A stretch of DNA of 39,230 nucleotides from Methanothrix sp. Its GTDB lineage: Archaea; Halobacteriota; Methanosarcinia; Methanotrichales; Methanotrichaceae. Positions 9,602 through 35,112 of this stretch are shown here, piece by piece; position 1 is the first letter of the stretch; every line of letters begins with the position of its first letter. Location of the stretch: NCBI GenBank assembly GCA_026394565.1, contig JAPKYA010000085.1, positions 1-39,230 on the forward strand, written 5' to 3'. The notes beneath the pieces are model-generated. The model had not been told where the DNA came from. It worked only from the letters and a program-made list of their open reading frames with translations, and made no database searches. The translations under genes were made by a program, and so were the position numbers.

Positions 9602-10136
9602 ATGCTTAAGCCTTTTTTATTCAGTTTGAATGCATGAATAGATGCATTGTATTTAAACGTTTACCATAAACCACCTGGCATAATCGCCGCCTCGATGCTC
9701 TTGCCTATGTCGCAAAGCTCGCCGCCTGCCTGCCCTGGCGGAAGGGAGTTAGAGATGCGACTTGGTGCTCATGGATATTCACATCGAAATCCTGCTTTCG
9801 AAAGTATCAGATTCGACTTTCGGTCCGTTCGCAGGCTTGCCTGCGCGGACACAGACATGCGCGCAGCGCAAGCGATCTTTATGCGCGCTTCTCGCCGATC
9901 TTACGACTCGGACTCTTGCAGAAGGACTTGATATCCGATCTGGGTGGATCTTGCCACCTGCACTTTTTGTGCATACTTGAAAACGGAGTTGAATCCCTCA
10001 GAAAAATTCTTAATGTAGAAGATGTAATGACAAAAGATGATTAGTCAAATGGCAAGATGATCATCGAGGAAAGAGCTTGGCGCCAAGCATGCATAAGGTC
10101 ATGGAACGAAAACCTAATGCATTAGGAGCGGATAAG
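9602..10136. other. Long intergenic region, possibly decayed coding DNA
   Basis: About 535 bases without a convincing gene. Plus-strand frames at 9647-9931 and 9762-9980 have no recognisable domain. From about 9930 one frame reads LENGVESLRKILNVEDVMTK and stops at 10042; this looks like a real protein tail, but no start or upstream domain is identifiable. The segment may be a gene remnant. The promoter of the giant secreted protein should lie within the last 100 bases. Confidence 0.4.
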
Positions 10137-13100
10137 ATGAATAAAAAGACCTTGGTTTCATTATTTGTTGGAATTTTTTTTATTGCTATGGCCATCTGTT
10201 ATGCATCGGACGATTCAGAAGAGATGAATAATACTGCACTTTTGGATAATTTATCTCTAATAAATTCAGCCCACCCAGAAGACATCAAAATATTACCAGA
10301 GCAGCTTTCGGACGATTCCCTCTCAGTAATTCTAATAGCAGTTTTTAATAATTCAATGCCGTCTTTTAGCATAGCTGGAACAGAGGTTTTGGATAACAAC
10401 CTGATTATAAAGGTTAATTGCGAGATATCTGAGCAGGGAAGAGCAAATCTAACGCCAAGAACGGCATATACTACCTTCTTCAATCTGACTTGCCAAAACT
10501 ATAATATTCTGGTGCAAGATAACTCCACCGGCATGGAAATCGCCAGAGAGAACAGCTCCATTAAACCTGCAGGCGAATTCATAAGCAAAAATGGTCTGAC
10601 TGCCACTATAGGGACATATAAGGGCGGAATGGAAAATGGCACATTGTATCTGATGCCCTTCCCAACGGTTCCGGTCTGCCCGCCTGGACTCTTCGAAAAT
10701 ACCAGCTTCTGGGCAAATACCACAGATAGATTTTATCTGATGATTAATCTCACAAACTTTGCTCAAGATCGAAAAGAAACAAAGATAATGCTGCATTCGC
10801 CATTGGGGGATGAAATCATTATTACTCCGAGCGAAATCTATCTGGAGGACCTAAAGAACAATTCGTCCTCCCTCTGTGTGTTCCAGATTGAGAATAGAGG
10901 CCCGGATCATGGAATATATAATTTGACGTATGAATTGAGTTTTAGCGAAAATGGTGCTCAGCAGTCCATTTCCGGCATTCTGCCAATGGGAGTGTATGAG
11001 AGATATGAATACTATTATGAGGATTTAAATGGGAATCTGACTACAAATGTCAAAGTCCGAACCCCTTTCAATGACACATTCAACTACACTGCCAGTGGTT
11101 GGTCAAACAACTTGACAAAGGATGGCAAGATATGGATTCCTACAGAAACCAGATTTGAAGCAAGCTTCGGCAATTATACAATGCAGGAGCCACATAGTCC
11201 CTTTCATCTTGCCTTAGTAGGGGCGGTAGCAGGAGGGGTAATATGCGGCGGAGCAACTGCCTGGGAACAATGGAAAGAAAAGAAATCGATTGATTGGAAC
11301 GATGTGTGCAAGAATGCTGGCAAAGGTGCAGTGGGTGGAGCATTTTTAGGCTTGACATACGGCTTTACAGCCCCTGGCGCAATTGGCGCAAAACTAGGGC
11401 TCACAGGAGCAAAAATCCTTAGCAATACGGCATTGTCTACAGTAGCTTTTACAGCATTGGATGCAGGCAATGAATTCGCTGAGAAAGGGAAAATTAGTTG
11501 GTCTAACGTCTTAACAAACGCGGTCCTTAATGCAGGAGAATCGTCGATTTTATATGGAGTAGGTCATATAGCGAGCGCAGTAACACCAGCAGTTTTACAT
11601 GCAGCTCGTGGCGGCGGCGTGGGCAAATGGGCTAAAGTCAGTGAACTGATGATGAAGGGCAAAATTATAGATTCAGCTCAGCTCTATAACTCCATGGCAG
11701 CTCACTTATCCCCTCAAATATTTCAACGAGTCATTTCTGGATATGAAAATACTCAGGGTATCTTTGATCTGGATAAAGTCCTCAAGAGTGCATCATTTAA
11801 ATACGTTGCACAGCATATTTTTAAAGATCCTAATGGGGAGTATCTTGTAAAGACTAACGGAGAAGGCGGGTTATTTGAAGGTCGAGATAAGTCCACAGAC
11901 TTCACCACTACCTATCCGATTGGAGAGAATGTCGCGCAGAATTACACATCGATGATCTGCGAAGCCTCCGGAGTATGGACATACGCAGACGAGGTTGAGC
12001 ATACAACTGGACTTGGCTCCCAAGAGATTCGCTGGGGGGCGAATGAAGTAGAAGAAAATAGTGGGCTTAGATTTGATGCATCTAAAATGATCACGGCGGA
12101 CATAGAGCAAGATTTCTGTTTAGGCAAACTAACTCACTTTAACTGGCCAACAGATTCTGGCGCGGACGCTGAAAAAGCGATCCTAAATGTGGCCTTGCAC
12201 TTCACGGACCCTATGGTCTCACCTGATCCACAGTTTAATTTCGATCTAAGTATTCTTAACACGGATAATACCGGTGGGGCTTGCGACCAGAGCATTCAAA
12301 AGAGCGACACACCCTGCGACGACCTGATAATGTGGACCATCACTGAACCGACTCAGAACTTCCAGATTGGCAATGAGATTTACACACTGAATATTATTGG
12401 TTTCGTGGACAACTGGCCTGAAGGTAATCCAGTAAACGCATTCTTCACCGAGGAGAGGAAAACAAATACTGCATATCTCATCGGAAGAATAATACCTCAT
12501 CAGGTTTCAAAGAGCGCGATTCAAGATCAGCCTTTAGGCCAGTTGCCTGCCAAAGATCTCCTCTATTCTGAGGACTTCTCTAATCCAAAGAGCGGATGGC
12601 CGAGGTACAGCACAGAAGATGAGGTCTTTGCCTATGAGGATGGCAGATATAATGTTACCGTCTTCCCAGATAGCTCGTATTCATTAGAGACTCATAAAGA
12701 TGAAAATTTCACAGACTTTGTGATGGAGGTTGAGGCAGCCAAAGTCGGCGGTCCAGATCCCAGCTATTATGGATTGGTCTTTCGATACATTGATGAGAAT
12801 AATTTCTATAAATTTTCTATATCCAGCAAGGGTGAATACAAATTTAGTGGCATAAAGGATGGATCTTGGTTCGCAGTCAAAGATTGGACAAAATCCGGCA
12901 TCATTCGGACAGTAGACGCATCCAACATCATTCAGGTAGTGGCTGAAGGTGGCAGGTTCACATTTTATATAAATGGATTTAAGGTAGCATATGCTTTTGA
13001 CGGTACCTTTGATACAGGCCGTATAGGAGTTGTCGGGCAGACTGACGATGGCGGCGCGCACGTCAGCTTTGACAATCTAAAAGTCTGGTCTATTGTACCC

Positions 13101-13685
13101 TATCAGCCTTTCGGCTCGCTCCTTGTCGGGGATATACTCTATTCTGACGAATTCAGCAATAGTGAGAGCGGCTGGGCCAATTATACTACGGAGGATGTGA
13201 GCTATACTTATTATGGAGGCAGGTACTACATAAAAATCATTCCGAAGAATGCCTACTTTTATGCTTCTCAGGCAGCAGAAGATTTCGGGGATTTCGTGAT
13301 GGAAGTTGAAGCTGCCAAAGCGAAGGGCCATGATCCAGTCAAGTATGGCGCTGTTCTGAGGTTTATTGACGACAATAACTTCTACCGCTTTGACGTATCG
13401 AGTAATGGTTACTTCAAATTTGATGGGAAAAAGGACGGATCGTGGTTTAATGTTATCGACTGGACAAAATCTGATGCCATTTACGACGATGAGTCTACCA
13501 ACATCATCCAGATATTGGCAGAAGGTGACAAGTTCACATTCTATATAAATGGAGCAAAGGTTGCCGAGGCTTATGACAGTAGTTTGGGCTCAGGCAAAAT
13601 AGGACTCGTAGCAGAGACTTCAGAAGACTACGGCGAAGCACTTGTGAGCTTTGATAAGCTAAAGGTGTGGTCTATTAAGGATTAG
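10137..13685 (+). CDS. Giant secreted surface protein: Gly/Ala-rich hydrophobic region, choice-of-anchor-K-like domain and two tandem C-terminal beta-sandwiches
   Basis: 1182 residues from the ATG at 10137, chosen because it starts a signal peptide (LVSLFVGIFFIAMAICYA) and follows TAGGAG; the frame is also open from 10077. Residues ~25-350 are an extracellular region with very many N-x-S/T sites. Residues ~355-480 are Gly/Ala-rich and hydrophobic (HLALVGAVAGGVICGGATAW, GAVGGAFLGLTYGF), resembling glycine-zipper pre-toxin regions. Residues ~590-785 resemble a choice-of-anchor K domain (SGVWTY, IRWGANEVEENSGLRFDAS). Then come two ~185-residue copies of a LamG/DUF1080-like sandwich (803-986, 991-1181), both with FSN-x-SGW, DFVMEVEAAK, FTFYING and VSFD-x-LKVWSI. 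The role is probably cell-surface adhesion or carbohydrate binding. Codon use is AT-richer than the neighbours. Confidence 0.75.
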   Translation: MNKKTLVSLFVGIFFIAMAICYASDDSEEMNNTALLDNLSLINSAHPEDIKILPEQLSDDSLSVILIAVFNNSMPSFSIAGTEVLDNNLIIKVNCEISEQGRANLTPRTAYTTFFNLTCQNYNILVQDNSTGMEIARENSSIKPAGEFISKNGLTATIGTYKGGMENGTLYLMPFPTVPVCPPGLFENTSFWANTTDRFYLMINLTNFAQDRKETKIMLHSPLGDEIIITPSEIYLEDLKNNSSSLCVFQIENRGPDHGIYNLTYELSFSENGAQQSISGILPMGVYERYEYYYEDLNGNLTTNVKVRTPFNDTFNYTASGWSNNLTKDGKIWIPTETRFEASFGNYTMQEPHSPFHLALVGAVAGGVICGGATAWEQWKEKKSIDWNDVCKNAGKGAVGGAFLGLTYGFTAPGAIGAKLGLTGAKILSNTALSTVAFTALDAGNEFAEKGKISWSNVLTNAVLNAGESSILYGVGHIASAVTPAVLHAARGGGVGKWAKVSELMMKGKIIDSAQLYNSMAAHLSPQIFQRVISGYENTQGIFDLDKVLKSASFKYVAQHIFKDPNGEYLVKTNGEGGLFEGRDKSTDFTTTYPIGENVAQNYTSMICEASGVWTYADEVEHTTGLGSQEIRWGANEVEENSGLRFDASKMITADIEQDFCLGKLTHFNWPTDSGADAEKAILNVALHFTDPMVSPDPQFNFDLSILNTDNTGGACDQSIQKSDTPCDDLIMWTITEPTQNFQIGNEIYTLNIIGFVDNWPEGNPVNAFFTEERKTNTAYLIGRIIPHQVSKSAIQDQPLGQLPAKDLLYSEDFSNPKSGWPRYSTEDEVFAYEDGRYNVTVFPDSSYSLETHKDENFTDFVMEVEAAKVGGPDPSYYGLVFRYIDENNFYKFSISSKGEYKFSGIKDGSWFAVKDWTKSGIIRTVDASNIIQVVAEGGRFTFYINGFKVAYAFDGTFDTGRIGVVGQTDDGGAHVSFDNLKVWSIVPYQPFGSLLVGDILYSDEFSNSESGWANYTTEDVSYTYYGGRYYIKIIPKNAYFYASQAAEDFGDFVMEVEAAKAKGHDPVKYGAVLRFIDDNNFYRFDVSSNGYFKFDGKKDGSWFNVIDWTKSDAIYDDESTNIIQILAEGDKFTFYINGAKVAEAYDSSLGSGKIGLVAETSEDYGEALVSFDKLKVWSIKD

Positions 13686-28849: not shown

Positions 28850-29063
28850 TTTATCTCCCTTGGCTTAATGGGCGGTTCTGGTGCAAAATGCTTCTGGTGG
28901 GCTGAGGGATGCCCGCCTCCAGCCCGCCCACGCGCGCGCGTCAGCTCAGTTCACGATTGTGAATGGGGCATTAGAGACGGATTTGCTATTTAAGTCTTGG
29001 GAATAGGGCAAGTGTGAGAGACGATGGTGGACATCTACAACCTGGATATGATTCTATCGAAAA

Positions 29064-29074
29064 CTTTTAAAATA
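29064..29074 (+). promoter_or_regulatory. TATA box for the ERCC4-type nuclease gene
   Basis: CTTTTAAAATA is centred about 25 bases before the ATG at 29093, so the message would be nearly leaderless. This supports starting at 29093 and not at 29024. Confidence 0.5.
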
Positions 29075-29092
29075 AGAAAAAAGAGTTATCCT

Positions 29093-29881
29093 ATGGCTCG
29101 ACCTTATCCCATCCTAGCATCTATCGATATCAACGAAGCTCACCGCCACAGGGCCCGGCACATCAAGAAAGCTATCGCCTTCGACGAGCACTTTCTGTTG
29201 GGAAAGGTCGAGAAACTGTCCCATGATCTGCGTTTCCAATGGAATGGTCAAACTCTGAACGTCGAGCTCAAAGACTTCACAGGCGATTGCCATAGCGACT
29301 ATGTAGCTTCTATCATCAGTTCGCAGGGCCGCCTGTATCAGCAGGTCCTGATAGGCAGGGAGCTTCAAGACCCTCTGATTATCATAGTCCTGGGAGCGGA
29401 CGCAGATGTCTCTTCTGCCATTGCCAGGACGGTCTACTCAAGAGGTTTTCTTGGCAGGAAGGCCGAAGACAAGATCATCGAATACGCTCAGATGGTGGAA
29501 CACTTCGAGGCCGACTGCATAGGCTGCAATGTCCGGGTATGGAGGCTGAAGGATAATCCCTACGCTCGGATGCTCCTTCGAGTCCGCAAGATCCTGGTGG
29601 GCGGGGACCTGTCCTGCTTTCGCCCCAGCACTGCTGAGGGCGAGCGCAAAGCCGTGGGGCTATCCCTGATGATTGGAAACGGCATCGGTCCCGCAAGGTC
29701 AAAGAGCCTTCTTGAGAAGTTCCTTCTCACACTGCAGGCCAAAAATCCGGATACCTACCTATGCGATTGCAGGGGGATCGGCCCCAAGCTCGCGTCCATC
29801 ATTCAGGAGACATTTGACCTGCCCCCTGAGATGGCGATGCGTCCCAAGGCGCGAAAAGCCGGAGGGAGGGATTCTCACTGA
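29093..29881 (+). CDS. ERCC4/XPF-type nuclease with C-terminal helix-hairpin-helix
   Basis: 262 residues from ATG 29093 (MARPYPILASIDINEAHRHR). The ERCC4 pattern is visible: IDINEAHR in place of the usual V-D-x-R-E, VELKDFTGDCHSDYVASI for the E-R-K-x-x-D block, then SSQGRLYQQVLIG (the GRL-x-x-Q motif). In the canonical motif Arg follows Glu (ERK); here it is ELK. The C-terminal GLSLMIGNGIGPARSKSLLE and CDCRGIGPKLASII are paired helix-hairpin-helix elements. XPF-type nucleases cut structured or stalled-fork DNA. The upstream extension (29024-29092) encodes VDIYNLDMIL, a match to RhuM (34225-34257), and is probably a recombination scar. Confidence 0.7.
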   Translation: MARPYPILASIDINEAHRHRARHIKKAIAFDEHFLLGKVEKLSHDLRFQWNGQTLNVELKDFTGDCHSDYVASIISSQGRLYQQVLIGRELQDPLIIIVLGADADVSSAIARTVYSRGFLGRKAEDKIIEYAQMVEHFEADCIGCNVRVWRLKDNPYARMLLRVRKILVGGDLSCFRPSTAEGERKAVGLSLMIGNGIGPARSKSLLEKFLLTLQAKNPDTYLCDCRGIGPKLASIIQETFDLPPEMAMRPKARKAGGRDSH

Positions 29882-29892
29882 GAACTCGGGTT

Positions 29893-30087
29893 TTGGAGCT
29901 ATCCGGACGGAAGGTGCATGGGACTATTTGGCTTTTAGATCAGATGGTAGAATATGAGATCCTCGATAAGCAGGAGCGTGCAGCATCTTTGAAGCTCATG
30001 ATCGAGTCTGGGTGCAGGCTGCTTTGTGATGAAATTAAATCTAGACTGATTTGGGAAGAAGTCACCAATAATATTGATATATTATGA
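29893..30087 (+). pseudogene. C-terminal fragment of a PIN/DUF3368-like toxin
   Basis: 64 codons from a TTG: KVHGTIWLLDQMVEYEILDK, then QERAASLKLMIESGCRLLCD and EIKSRLIWEEV. The pattern (V)xGTxxLLxxxxxxxIxxxxxxLxxMxxxGxRLxxDExxxxL is the last third of DUF3368/PIN-family putative toxins (RNases). The catalytic acidic residues in the N-terminal two thirds are absent, so it cannot be an active PIN nuclease. It sits 11 bases after the ERCC4 gene and 47 before the Avs-like gene. Confidence 0.5.
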
Positions 30088-30134
30088 TAGAAGATACGTG
30101 GGATACACACGGAATTATCAGATGATGGACTATT

Positions 30135-33100
30135 ATGACTAAGCTCAATCAAATACAAACTGCCTTGCTAGAATTAGATGGCGGCAAGTTCCAGAAGCTT
30201 ATGGATTCATATCTATATAAGATGGGTTACGAATGGATTAATTCTCCTGGATCTGTTCTGGGATCGGATAAAGTAAAGAAAGGCACACCTGATACATTTT
30301 TCAGTCTTCCAAATGGAAAATACGCATTAGCAGAATATACAACCCAGCAAACTGGCGTTTTCGGCAAGATCAAAGGTGATCTCAATAAGTGCTTGGATTT
30401 AGTGAAAACCGGGGTGCTCATTGAGGAAATTATTTTTTGCCACACGTCCACGCTATCGTTTCCAAAGGTAGATGATCTTGTAAAAGAGTGCATGAGGTAT
30501 GAGATCAATATAAATATCTTTGGCATAGACAAAATATCCCAGGATCTTTACCAAAAATACCCACATCTAGCGCGTGACTTCCTTGGCATCGAAGTAGATA
30601 CAGGACAGATCATGTCTCCTGAATATTTTATTTTAACTTACGACAGAAACAGACTTGCTACTCGCCTTAACACGAAATTTCGCTTTAGGGAGGTAGAAAT
30701 TGAGCAAATCCTTCAAATCCTAGAAAATAGTGACTTGGTCATAGTATCAGGTCGGCCTGGCATAGGCAAATCTCGTTTTGCCCTGGAATGCTGCAAGCGA
30801 TTTAAGGATGCTCACTCAGATTATAATATCCAATGTATCTACAACCGAGGTCAGGACCTCTATGAGGATCTGCGTGGTTACTTCTCGAAACCTGGAAACT
30901 TCCTTATCCTAGTAGATGATGCCAATCGCGTAAGTCGTTTTGATTATATCATACAGCTCCTTCAAGGTAAGCGTGACGACCAATTGATCAAGGTGATTGT
31001 AACTGTTCGTGATTATGCTCTTGACGGAATTCGGGATTCTGCGAGTTCGCAAGGTGATACACCAATTATGGAATTAAAGCCCCTGGAAGATAGTCAGATT
31101 AAGCAGTTAGTGAGAGATGAGTTCGTCATATCAAATCCACTTTATCTTGACCGGATTGCTGATATTTCAAAGGGAAACCCTCGCCTAGCTATGATGACAG
31201 CCGAAGTGGCAAAACGAGAGAATAAGTTTGAAAGCATAATAGATGTCACAGTCCTTTATGATAAGTATTTCTCATCCATTCGACATGATCTGGACGAATT
31301 AGGTGATAAAAATCTCCTCAAGGTCGCAGGCATTGTTGCTTTTTTTCGATCAATTGATTATTCGAACAAAGAGATTATGGCTGCCATCGAGGATGCATTC
31401 GAAATGCCTTCCGGGGCTTTCTGGGAGACCACACGAAAACTTCATAACTTAGAAGTTTTTGATATGTATGAAAATGAGATCGTAAAGACTTCTGATCAAA
31501 TTTTAGCAAACTATTTATTTTACCTCGCTTTTTTTAAAGATAAAGTGCTTGACTTTTCTGTCCTTTTAGAACATTTTTTTCCAAAACATCGTCATCGTCT
31601 GGTCGATGCCATCAATCCAGTGCTAAACACCTTCAACCTGGATGAGATCGAAGATGTAATGCGCGAGCCAGTTGATAGAGCTTGGCAATCCCTAAAAGAA
31701 ATGGATAGCAAGGATAGTCTTCTCCATCTTTTGGAGGTCTTTTGGTTTCTCATACCGACAGAAACGCTCCTCTACGTCAAAGGCCATATAGATGAGATGG
31801 ATTTAAGAGAGGTTGATCCGTCCAAAATGGATTTTAAGGAGAATTCTCAGATACCATCACCATCGATTCTCGGTATTCTTGGCTCATTTAAGTATGGAAA
31901 AGATGCAGATTTCCGGATTGCTCTGGACCTGCTTTTCGACTATGTCGCTAAAAGGCCAGATGAATTGCCGCAAGTGCTTTTCCTACTTACCGATAGATTT
32001 GGATTCAATCACAGGTCTCATTTCAGCGGCTTTAGGATACAACAAGATATAATTAGTGTCCTTTGGGAGCACACAAATAATGGACAAAATGAATTGTATT
32101 CTAGGATCTTCTTAGCAGTTGCTGATAAATACCTTCAAATAAAATTCCACACTACTGAATTAAAAAGTCGTCATGCTATTAACATAATCAATTTCCATCT
32201 TCCGCCAACACCAGAGCTCTTCCAACTGAGGCAAATAATTTGGGGCAGATTATTTTGTTTATATAAAATTTCTGCACTTCGAAAGACTGTGCTCAACGTC
32301 CTTCACAGCTACTGCACATGGAACCACGTGGATTCTGTAAGAGATATCGTAATGCAAGATGCGAAAGAAGTACTACCTTTCATAAACACTGAATTGAATC
32401 CTGAAAGCTACAGTCATTGCTACGCAGTTCATGAATACTTAGATCTTCTTGGCTGCCAGGGTGTTCTAGTCGATAAATCTGCTGAAGATAATTTCACTAA
32501 CGAGGCATATAAATTGTCGAAGCTGCTCCTACGTAATAATTTTGAAAGAAAAAATTTAGGTATGAGCCTTGATAAGTATAAGCAGCTAAAACGGAAGCAG
32601 ATTGATGAAAAATTCAAAGGGTTTGGTTTACCTGACTATGAATATTTCTTCAAGCTAGGTATCGAAATCTACACTGAGATGGTTCAAAGCCAAATGGACT
32701 ATCAAATTCAGACGGAGACTATTGATATTCTCCTTGCATTAGCTGATAGAAATCCAGATCTTTATACTTATGTCCTGGAGTACTACCTAAAATTAGGGGA
32801 CCCACTTAATCTTGTATCTCTTCCAGAGTCTCAACGATTAATAGAGAAGCTCGTAGAAATCTGTAAAGCGGAACGCTCTTACGAGATTCTCAGATCACTT
32901 GATCCGACTATGCGTTCCTGGTTGTTCTGCTACTATATCTTTCTGCCAGCAAGCGAAATTTCAAAAGACCACTTGCTTCAACTGTATTCTTTGTACCAGG
33001 AGACTAACGGAAGTGGTCTACATCAAAGCCTTGACTTCTTGCTCAAGTATCGCTCACTCGAGGAAGATGTAGTTGTGCGAGTCACAGAGATAATCTTGGA

Positions 33101-33569
33101 AAAGGTGATGGCAGATCCCAGCTTTGCTTGTGCCCTCTCGTCGTTACTTAACGAATATACTGATGTGAATAAAGAAATTATAAACATTTTCGCGAAAAAT
33201 AAACTCTTGCTTGAAAGAGCATATTTGGCAGTCTTAGAAATTGAAGCTCATGCAGACTACGATGGGAAAACCTTTGAACGTATCCTGGATTTAGATCCGG
33301 ATTTCATCTCAGTGCATATTGACCACGCGTATAAAATAAAAGATATGCCTTGTCTGCTAGACGATACCAGAGACTATACGTTCCTTTGGATGCGAGATAA
33401 TCATGAAGAAGTAATAGCACGAGCCGTAAAGCAGACCTTTAAAAATGAGCTAGAGCAGGGTGCTTTTCGTTATACTTATACGTACCTGAACGTATTTTTT
33501 ATCCAAAGAAATAACGATAAAAATATGGTGTGGTCAGAGAGAGGCAGGACCAATTATTGGATGCTTTGA
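30135..33569 (+). CDS. Avs-like STAND NTPase with N-terminal PD-(D/E)XK-type domain (C-terminus displaced by a frameshift)
   Basis: 1144 residues to the visible stop. Residues 10-150 resemble a restriction-endonuclease fold: helix GGKFQKLMDSYLYKMGY, then GTPDTFF (Asp53) and YALAEYTTQ (Glu67, with Thr where Lys is usual). Next is a STAND-type NTPase: Walker A GRPGIGKS at 206-213, Walker B FLILVDDAN at 256-264, sensor Arg in VTVRDY (292), and GNPR at 347-350. Residues ~380-1144 are a long helical repeat array, the likely ligand sensor. This layout (nuclease, STAND, helical sensor) is that of anti-phage Avs systems, in which phage protein binding triggers nuclease activity. Homologous-looking C-terminal residues continue in the -1 frame (33530-33904), so the gene appears broken near 33540. 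AT-rich codon use suggests acquisition by transfer. Confidence 0.75.
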   Translation: MTKLNQIQTALLELDGGKFQKLMDSYLYKMGYEWINSPGSVLGSDKVKKGTPDTFFSLPNGKYALAEYTTQQTGVFGKIKGDLNKCLDLVKTGVLIEEIIFCHTSTLSFPKVDDLVKECMRYEININIFGIDKISQDLYQKYPHLARDFLGIEVDTGQIMSPEYFILTYDRNRLATRLNTKFRFREVEIEQILQILENSDLVIVSGRPGIGKSRFALECCKRFKDAHSDYNIQCIYNRGQDLYEDLRGYFSKPGNFLILVDDANRVSRFDYIIQLLQGKRDDQLIKVIVTVRDYALDGIRDSASSQGDTPIMELKPLEDSQIKQLVRDEFVISNPLYLDRIADISKGNPRLAMMTAEVAKRENKFESIIDVTVLYDKYFSSIRHDLDELGDKNLLKVAGIVAFFRSIDYSNKEIMAAIEDAFEMPSGAFWETTRKLHNLEVFDMYENEIVKTSDQILANYLFYLAFFKDKVLDFSVLLEHFFPKHRHRLVDAINPVLNTFNLDEIEDVMREPVDRAWQSLKEMDSKDSLLHLLEVFWFLIPTETLLYVKGHIDEMDLREVDPSKMDFKENSQIPSPSILGILGSFKYGKDADFRIALDLLFDYVAKRPDELPQVLFLLTDRFGFNHRSHFSGFRIQQDIISVLWEHTNNGQNELYSRIFLAVADKYLQIKFHTTELKSRHAINIINFHLPPTPELFQLRQIIWGRLFCLYKISALRKTVLNVLHSYCTWNHVDSVRDIVMQDAKEVLPFINTELNPESYSHCYAVHEYLDLLGCQGVLVDKSAEDNFTNEAYKLSKLLLRNNFERKNLGMSLDKYKQLKRKQIDEKFKGFGLPDYEYFFKLGIEIYTEMVQSQMDYQIQTETIDILLALADRNPDLYTYVLEYYLKLGDPLNLVSLPESQRLIEKLVEICKAERSYEILRSLDPTMRSWLFCYYIFLPASEISKDHLLQLYSLYQETNGSGLHQSLDFLLKYRSLEEDVVVRVTEIILEKVMADPSFACALSSLLNEYTDVNKEIINIFAKNKLLLERAYLAVLEIEAHADYDGKTFERILDLDPDFISVHIDHAYKIKDMPCLLDDTRDYTFLWMRDNHEEVIARAVKQTFKNELEQGAFRYTYTYLNVFFIQRNNDKNMVWSERGRTNYWML

Positions 33570-33904
33570 TTAGGCAAAATTATAACGATCCAGACATGAT
33601 GATGTTCATATTCGGCGTTATCGCGAATTTCCCTGCCGAAAGGCGTCGTCAATTCGTATCCTCGTTTCTAGAACATAACAAATGCTTCGAAGATTTTCAG
33701 AGACTGGCCCTTGAGCCCAATTCTTGGGGCTGGTCAGGGAGCGCTGTACCCACGCTCCAAAAACGAGTAGATTACTTTGAATCAATTCACTCGCTCCTCA
33801 ATGAAGTGCAGCTTCTGCAACACAAACTGCATGTGGAGATGATAATTCAGGAAATTCACATGGAAATTGAGCGCGAGAAAAAAAGGGACTTCATTGGAGA
33901 CTAA
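33530..33904 (+). pseudogene. Displaced C-terminal part of the Avs-like gene
   Basis: The -1 frame opens just after a TAA at ~33516 and reads RQDQLLDALIRQNYNDPDMM, then EPNSWGWSGSAVPTLQKRVD and EIHMEIEREKKRDFIGD. It continues the helical character of the upstream protein, and ...LHVEMIIQEIHMEIEREKKRD looks like a natural terminal helix. The upstream frame runs WSERGRTNYWML and stops, whereas WSER plus QDQLLDAL joins smoothly if one base is missing within the AGAGAGAGG run at 33538-33546. Read together the protein would be about 1255 residues. The break may be a real mutation, a sequencing error or, less likely, programmed frameshifting. Confidence 0.7.
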
Positions 33905-33926
33905 AGAGAGGAGGACCAGAGGCCAG

Positions 33927-35000
33927 ATGAAGAAGCCCACGAGCGAAGAGAATGAAATGACCGCCGACAAAGCCACCCCCGCTCCGGATACCGGGATCAT
34001 CTTCTACCAGACAGAGGACGGCGGGTCCCGCATCCAGGTACGTCTGCAGGACGGCACCGTCTGGCTCAGCCAGAGGCTGCTGGCCGAGCTTTACCAGGTT
34101 GCGGTTCATACTATTAACGAGCATATCTCCGCCATTTATGGGGATCATGAACTCAGTCAAGAGGCAACTATTCGGAAATACCGAATAGTTCAAACCGAGG
34201 GCATTCGCCAGGTTGAGCGGCAGGTGGACTTCTACAACCTGGATATGATTCTGGCCATCGGCTACCGCGTGCGAAGCCACCGGGGAGTGCAGTTCCGCCG
34301 CTGGGCTACGGAGCGCTTGAAAGAGTACATCATCAAGGGCTTTGTGATGGATGATGAACGGCTTAAGGGAGAGAGGGCTTTCGGCTCTGACTATTTCGAC
34401 GAGCTGCTGGAGCGCATTCGCGATATTCGGGCCTCGGAAAAACGCTTTTACCAGAAGGTTCGCGACATTTACACCATTTCAGTGGATTACGATTCAAAGG
34501 CGGAAAGCACCCAGGAATTCTTCAAGATAGTGCAAAACAAGCTGCATTGGGCAATCACCGGCCAAACTGACGCCGAGTTGATCTCCGGGCGGGCGGACGC
34601 GGGGCAGCTCAACATGGGACTTACGAGCTGGAAGGGCACCAGGGTTCGCCAGGCTGATGTGGTCGTTGCCAAAAATTACCTGCAACAGGGCGAGATAGGA
34701 CAGCTCAACCGCCTGGTGAATATGTGGCTGGACTATGCTGAGGACCAGGCCGAACAGAGAAAGCCGGTCTACATGAAGGAATGGCGCGAGAAGCTGGACG
34801 CCTTCCTGCAATTTAACCAGCGGGCGATTTTGCAGCACAGCGGGCGCACATCGATGGAGGAGGCCAAACGCTTGGCCCTGGAGCAATATCGTATCTTCAA
34901 TCAGAGTAGAATTGAAGCGGAGGATGACGGGGCCGAGAGCGAATTCGAAATAGAGGTGGAAAGGCTTTTGCCAATGAATAGAAACAAGACGGGAGAATAG
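33927..35000 (+). CDS. rhuM: RhuM-family protein
   Basis: 357 residues from ATG 33927 (GAGGAGG at 33907-33913 upstream); the frame is open from 33867. The family core is very clear: VRLQDGTVWLSQRLLAELYQ, HTINEHISAIYGDHELSQEA, RQVDFYNLDMILAIGYRVRS, FRRWATERLKEYIIKGFVMD, and later EFFKIVQNKLHWAITGQTDA and ADVVVAKNYLQQGEIGQLNR. RhuM was first named from a Salmonella pathogenicity island and is common in defence islands and prophages; its N-terminal part resembles a phage-type regulator (winged helix/BRO-like) and its activity is unknown. Only 22 bases separate it from the Avs-like C-terminus, so it likely shares that transcript. It is GC-richer than the Avs-like gene. Confidence 0.9.
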   Translation: MKKPTSEENEMTADKATPAPDTGIIFYQTEDGGSRIQVRLQDGTVWLSQRLLAELYQVAVHTINEHISAIYGDHELSQEATIRKYRIVQTEGIRQVERQVDFYNLDMILAIGYRVRSHRGVQFRRWATERLKEYIIKGFVMDDERLKGERAFGSDYFDELLERIRDIRASEKRFYQKVRDIYTISVDYDSKAESTQEFFKIVQNKLHWAITGQTDAELISGRADAGQLNMGLTSWKGTRVRQADVVVAKNYLQQGEIGQLNRLVNMWLDYAEDQAEQRKPVYMKEWREKLDAFLQFNQRAILQHSGRTSMEEAKRLALEQYRIFNQSRIEAEDDGAESEFEIEVERLLPMNRNKTGE

Positions 35001-35112
35001 CTGGCAGACGCACCGTTCAGAAATGCAGGGCGAATAGTTTGGGTTGCATTTAAGTATTCGAAAAAAGGTCTCTTTCCTCAGTTCGTCTAAATAAATTTCA
35101 AGGTGATTTATT

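Follow-up and report, generated by a model that had tools for sequence, protein, structure and literature searches.

An Avs-like nuclease-STAND gene at a variable site of a Methanothrix genome and its relatives in bacteria

Background

Does a large gene of a methanogen, with a nuclease-like head, a STAND nucleoside triphosphatase (NTPase) and a long helical tail, encode an anti-phage protein of the Avs kind, and does it mark an archaeal branch of such proteins? The gene lies at 30135-33904 on the forward strand of contig JAPKYA010000085.1 from Methanothrix sp. (assembly GCA_026394565.1); the whole stretch analysed, 39,230 nucleotides, is called the window. It is a single large gene, read in two frames. 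Avs1-4 are described, in the excerpted text of PMC12931631, as killing through a nuclease upon sensing terminase or portal proteins. We computed the predicted fold, the conserved residues, the NTPase homology, the company of the relatives and the variability of the site. The sequences indicate an Avs-like nuclease-STAND family that is real, widespread and unnamed in Pfam, NCBIfam and PADLOC as searched. Its predicted function is likely to be Avs-like, and its membership in any named Avs type is not supported.

Results

Domain organization

The main open reading frame (ORF; 30135..33569, +; 1144 residues) comprises the head, the NTPase and the greater part of the helical region. Structure prediction, which could have contradicted the N-terminal nuclease fold proposed in an initial annotation of this DNA, gave the head (residues 1-160; 30135..30614, +) a restriction-endonuclease-like fold with the PD-(D/E)XK core, and the closest structural matches of the model were DNA enzymes. 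The NTPase with the following helical and winged part (residues 161-480; 30615..31574, +) was recognized by profile and fold matches. Walker A (GRPGIGKS, residues 206-213; 30750..30773, +) and Walker B (LILVDD, residues 257-262; 30903..30920, +) were located by motif and alignment, and VTVRD and GNPR lie at residues 289-293 and 347-350. All four motifs named in the initial annotation are thus present, and their key residues (G209, G211, K212, D261, D262, R292 and N348) are invariant in a 38-member alignment. The nSTAND3 profile matched the window protein at 27.0 bits, just below its cut-off of 27.2, and matched 36 of the 38 members at E<=0.1 (best 8.5e-14). In the full-length model the NTPase resembles STAND proteins and also other AAA+ proteins. 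The remaining region (residues 481-1144; 31575..33569, +), the presumed sensor, is predicted to be almost wholly helical and is the least conserved part; no repeat family was recognized in it.

The initial annotation treated two ORFs as one frame-split gene, and this was borne out. The 124-residue ORF in the other frame (33530..33904, +) represents about 123 final codons, that is, the 3' end of the STAND gene and not a separate gene. It matches the C-terminus of an Ignavibacteriales relative (L108; 43%, E 7e-32, BLAST) and another Methanotrichaceae copy (L177; 62%, E 1e-46). Because blastx across the junction against L108 follows one frame to residue 1131 and another from residue 1133 onward, the two ORFs together encode one protein, which the shorter ORF completes. 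Differences from the Methanotrichaceae copy at the codon positions (0.30/0.21/0.58 upstream and 0.23/0.20/0.47 downstream of the junction) show that both parts were evolving as protein until recently, so that the frame change either is of recent date or reflects an error of assembly. The window copy, split near 33.5 kb, may be inactive. Elsewhere in the family, breakage takes the form of frame changes, stops, an insertion, internal loss or bare heads (L028, L065, L066, L074, L080, L081, L082, L085 and L093; also G507, with L164 and L166, and G908), and L054 has two TAG codons within the profile match.

Distribution and phylogeny of the family

In the archaeal phylum, a single-protein search of 392 genomes found the window gene and nothing in the 391 others, and a five-row profile matched 17 of the same 392 genomes, 16 of them by the NTPase region only. 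Single-protein searches found no relative in phage records; a single-protein scan of genome contigs and an alignment scan of viral contigs, for which the chosen peptide patterns were poor, gave no match. The single-protein search did find relatives on 13 Leptospira plasmids (about 26% identity) and, on two haloarchaeal plasmids, proteins with only the NTPase in common with the window protein (L006:3389-7171, 1260 residues; L007:3356-7117, 1253 residues); by eye, their N-terminus is different and without the nuclease motif. On one Leptospira plasmid the relative is followed by a second large STAND-like gene (L002:9881-13675) with a weak match in the NTPase part and a head that by eye (DGGVDV...FQVK) resembles the classical motif. 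Four Leptospira accessions of the family were named in no paper found, in a search outside which most subscription journals lie.

A DNA pattern was then made by hand from residues common to the window and Leptospira proteins (G-T-P-D-x-[FY], [ND]-G-x-[FY], E). Scanning 84,980 species genomes gave 79 matches, of which 78 were relatives by BLAST and one (L073) a chance match, where we had estimated about two by chance; both matches in viral contigs were relatives. The 80 true matches comprise 41 closed genes of at least 1,150 residues, 30 that extend beyond the fetched sequence and 9 short ones. Start codons were set as those nearest 50 residues before the motif, so agreement among them is no evidence.

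A tree of 68 rows was built from the first 560 residues, excluding matches shorter than 480 residues, and rooted at the midpoint. It covers 13 named phyla besides Leptospira, which puts the family in about 14 phyla. Only three rows are archaeal. The window protein and that of Methanosaeta sp. UBA204 (L047; its genome is listed under two handles, G392 and G992, with the same coordinates) form a supported group (100/99) with the Ignavibacteriales protein L108, nested in a supported set in which 15 of the 25 rows come from Bacillota. The third, from Methanobrevibacter (L064), is distant, on a long branch of unsure placement. The suggestion of an undescribed archaeal branch was therefore abandoned, as the tree places the window gene with bacterial genes. 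Rooted in this way, the tree allows the direction of transfer only to be inferred. The gene is rare: the family profile matched 7 of 247 Bacteroidota genomes (two seeds, one split, one remnant), and 2 of 299 Bacillota genomes (one seed, one broken); within the order to which the window belongs it matched 2 of 50 genomes, and within the genus 1 of 26.

Active site of the head

The segment from motif II (Asp53) to motif III (Glu67-x-Thr69) was located by the sequence pattern and the head alignment at 30291..30341 (+), with GTPD at residues 50-53 and EYTTQ at 67-71. Asp53 and Glu67 occur in all 66 aligned heads, although the search pattern imposed this in 63 of the 66 rows; both are also retained in homologues found without the pattern. 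The usual motif III Lys is absent, its place being taken by Thr (64) or Ser (16) in all 80 true pattern matches and by 54 Thr and 12 Ser in the 66 aligned heads. The Thr noticed initially is thus present, and it is the rule across the family, not a peculiarity of the methanogen. Lys78 (30366..30368, +), nine residues past Thr69 on the helix after the third strand (residues 75-91), is invariant (66/66). We consider this candidate migrated catalytic Lys the likely replacement for the motif III Lys, its catalytic role being predicted; such shifts are known in other PD-(D/E)XK families, as the consulted portion of PMC1913061 reports.

Variable site and neighbouring genes

Comparison of the flanks with same-genus genomes delimited a block of about 6.1 kb (28901..35036, no strand) that holds the STAND gene. 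Each of the 21 genus genomes searched has a match somewhere in this stretch. In one of them (L156) the left flank, to 28,900, and the right flank, from 35,037, are separated by 32 bp, and in L183/L152 by 414 bp. The site holds about 3 kb of DNA, for the most part unmatched, in G433 (L181), a homologue of part of a 285-residue ORF in G425 (L182) and a RhuM gene from residue 92 onward in G421 (L180). As the contents differ among six genus genomes (nearly empty, RhuM piece, 285-residue gene, unmatched DNA, STAND block), the site is variable. The GC content is 0.40 in the STAND gene, 0.54 in RhuM and 0.49 in the whole window; no tRNA was found at the block edge within the window.

The next gene downstream (33867..35000, +) is of the RhuM family, a PADLOC candidate (PDC-S05). 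The block also contains the 285-residue ORF (29024..29881, +), which has a weak helix-hairpin-helix match, so that the earlier statement that only RhuM accompanies the STAND gene was nearly right. A 30-bp stretch of the RhuM gene (34223-34252) is repeated upstream at 29026-29055 (29/30 identical), at the start of that ORF, and is perhaps an older RhuM remnant, RhuM being present at the site in G421. Outside the block, a 1202-residue ORF (10077-13685) has a C-terminal domain like 3-keto-disaccharide hydrolase.

Neighbourhoods of up to 20 kb were taken from 20 relatives, whose genomes also supplied 20 control stretches. The scan covered 136 of the 159 neighbour proteins, belonging to 17 of the 20 relatives (the other three were excluded on account of size), and 136 of the 194 control proteins, belonging to 15 of the 20 stretches and 13 genomes. 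RhuM adjoins the STAND gene, as in the window, in 3 of the 20 relatives, and no neighbour family (ORFs of at least 110 residues) is common to over 5 of the 20. We rejected RhuM as a fixed partner because it adjoins so few relatives and is present at the site without the STAND gene; because G421 has it there alone, RhuM may have arrived separately.

Discussion

Proposed mechanism and alternatives

The explanation that we favour, and hold to be rather probable as a whole, transfer included, is a single-gene defence protein working like Avs1-4. We infer the trigger, assembly, substrate, outcome and direction of transfer as follows. The helical C-terminal region would bind a viral protein produced in infection; the STAND NTPase would then bind nucleotide and the protein would assemble; assembly would unite the nuclease heads, which would cut nucleic acid, and the infection would be stopped or the cell killed. 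In the head, Asp53 and Glu67 would coordinate metal, with Thr/Ser69 occupying the usual Lys position and Lys78 of the next helix doing the Lys task. The gene would have come to the Methanotrichaceae methanogen by transfer, most likely from a bacterial donor, into a variable site with a RhuM gene.

Several results weigh against this explanation. Ordinary AAA+ proteins (ORC, clamp loaders and ClpA) match the model NTPase nearly as well as STAND proteins do, and neither the head nor the family is named by any model of PADLOC, NCBIfam or Pfam, as searched. The head profile gave no sequence signal against an Avs4 head profile of just two rows (0.1%, E 0.4), and nothing beyond the NTPase aligned in an Avs4 alignment (four rows, two of them annotated Avs4). 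The 166 PADLOC models matched in the neighbourhoods of the relatives at E<=1e-15, versus 8 in the controls, are overlapping models, not genes; among the 25 of the 166 listed, 24 are PDC-S05 or PDC-S23 models matched by 4 RhuM proteins, and the remaining one is mad2 (6 proteins; 1 in controls). The window RhuM alone matches 39 PADLOC models at E<=1, and RhuM therefore accounts for only part of the 166. In G421 the RhuM gene does without the STAND gene altogether. The window copy is broken by the frame change in this assembly, and, of the 50 pattern matches that end within the fetched sequence, 9 are broken copies or remnants.

This breakage bears on whether the gene is a decaying accessory gene, dead in this organism and without present function. 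We think this unlikely, if a serious possibility: the frame change near 33.5 kb and the broken copies elsewhere favour it, whereas the codon-position differences point to protein-like evolution of both parts until recently and a draft contig could contain a sequence error. It concerns the window copy, not the family, and is compatible with an Avs-like protein. Loss of the motif III Lys, with Thr or Ser at position 69 throughout the family, could also mean a non-catalytic head that serves to bind nucleic acid or to bring in a partner, for which the RhuM genes recurring beside the STAND gene might speak. We regard this as distinctly improbable, given that Asp53, Glu67, Lys78 and Asp82 are retained over about 14 phyla as in an active site, that a motif III Thr combined with a Lys on the following helix represents a known variation (PMC1913061, in the portion consulted) and that RhuM adjoins few relatives and is no fixed partner.

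A catalytic head might instead cleave RNA. The active sites of viral cap-snatching endonucleases likewise pair PD...(D/E)xT and a Lys of the helix that follows, and the Pfam family PF15518 (L protein N-terminus) matches 29 of 64 heads at E<=10 (best 1.8e-5, a biased pick among 64 related queries). Among ten heads detailed, five match it, four of them across the whole D-E-T-K region, but all five score under the curated cut-off (16.8-22.1 of 27 bits), and the window head, like five of the ten, has no match. The structures that best match the head are also DNA enzymes, and we find RNA cleavage highly improbable. The list of 50 entries obtained with the head model contains no cap-snatching endonuclease, which excludes nothing. 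Quite unlikely, too, is a wider proposal, of a further Avs kind across bacteria with a D-E-T and migrated-Lys nuclease as in cap-snatching endonucleases, possibly RNA-cutting, a sensor unlike that of Avs1-5, perhaps another viral trigger and more than one acquisition by methanogens.

If the Avs-like defence protein is the right explanation, a receptor family of about 14 phyla, unnamed in the libraries searched, would join the Avs-type immune proteins, its altered active site would yield a clear mutational prediction (K78), and such receptors would move between bacteria and methanogens. Intact bacterial copies exist, L108, L033 and L088 among them, and are testable in laboratory hosts.

Comparison with known systems

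The Avs-like character proposed initially is supported by the nuclease-fold head, the STAND NTPase, the helical C-terminus, their layout and the company of defence genes, but no Avs model matched the window protein in PADLOC (E<=1) or NCBIfam (E<=0.1). Both libraries contain Avs models, NF041815 among them. For the other 37 members, no Avs was among the 25 commonest of the 28 (PADLOC) and 58 (NCBIfam) families matched. Archaeal Avs proteins, which had been called poorly known, are not unknown: AVAST makes up 5.6% of defence systems in rumen archaea, according to the excerpted text of PMC11834463.

Avs4 (AVAST type 4; NF041815; PDB 8dgf) has an NTPase homologous to that of the window family, which differs in length (about 1,240 residues versus 1,587 in two E. 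coli Avs4 proteins) and in motif III (ExT versus QxK in the two E. coli heads, read by eye). The model NF041815 (cut-off 1500 bits) left the window gene unmatched at E<=1e-3 and matched another gene of the same genome (L167, C119:139-4293; 515.6 bits, E 4e-155, below cut-off), so that by its profile match this Methanothrix also carries a putative Avs4-like gene. That gene begins near a contig end, and its nuclease side is missing, because the match starts at position 200 of 1579.

Avs5 (SIR2-nSTAND3) has a SIR2 head in place of the nuclease-fold head. Mad8 of the Mads system (PADLOC) matches 30 of the 38 members weakly (best 1.2e-6), in the window protein at residues 199-427, that is, the NTPase, so that neither the head nor the bulk of the helical part is covered. 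For the head itself, a profile search against the sequences of solved structures gave no match at E<=10, and none of DUF1626, DUF506 and DUF790, PD-(D/E)XK families with a migrated Lys or Arg, is among the 25 of 47 Pfam families listed for the heads. DUF1626 nevertheless resembles the window family in its motif III Thr and in a Lys that has probably moved onto the helix following strand three (PMC1913061, again as consulted in part). The window family differs from all three in that its head is fused to a STAND NTPase.
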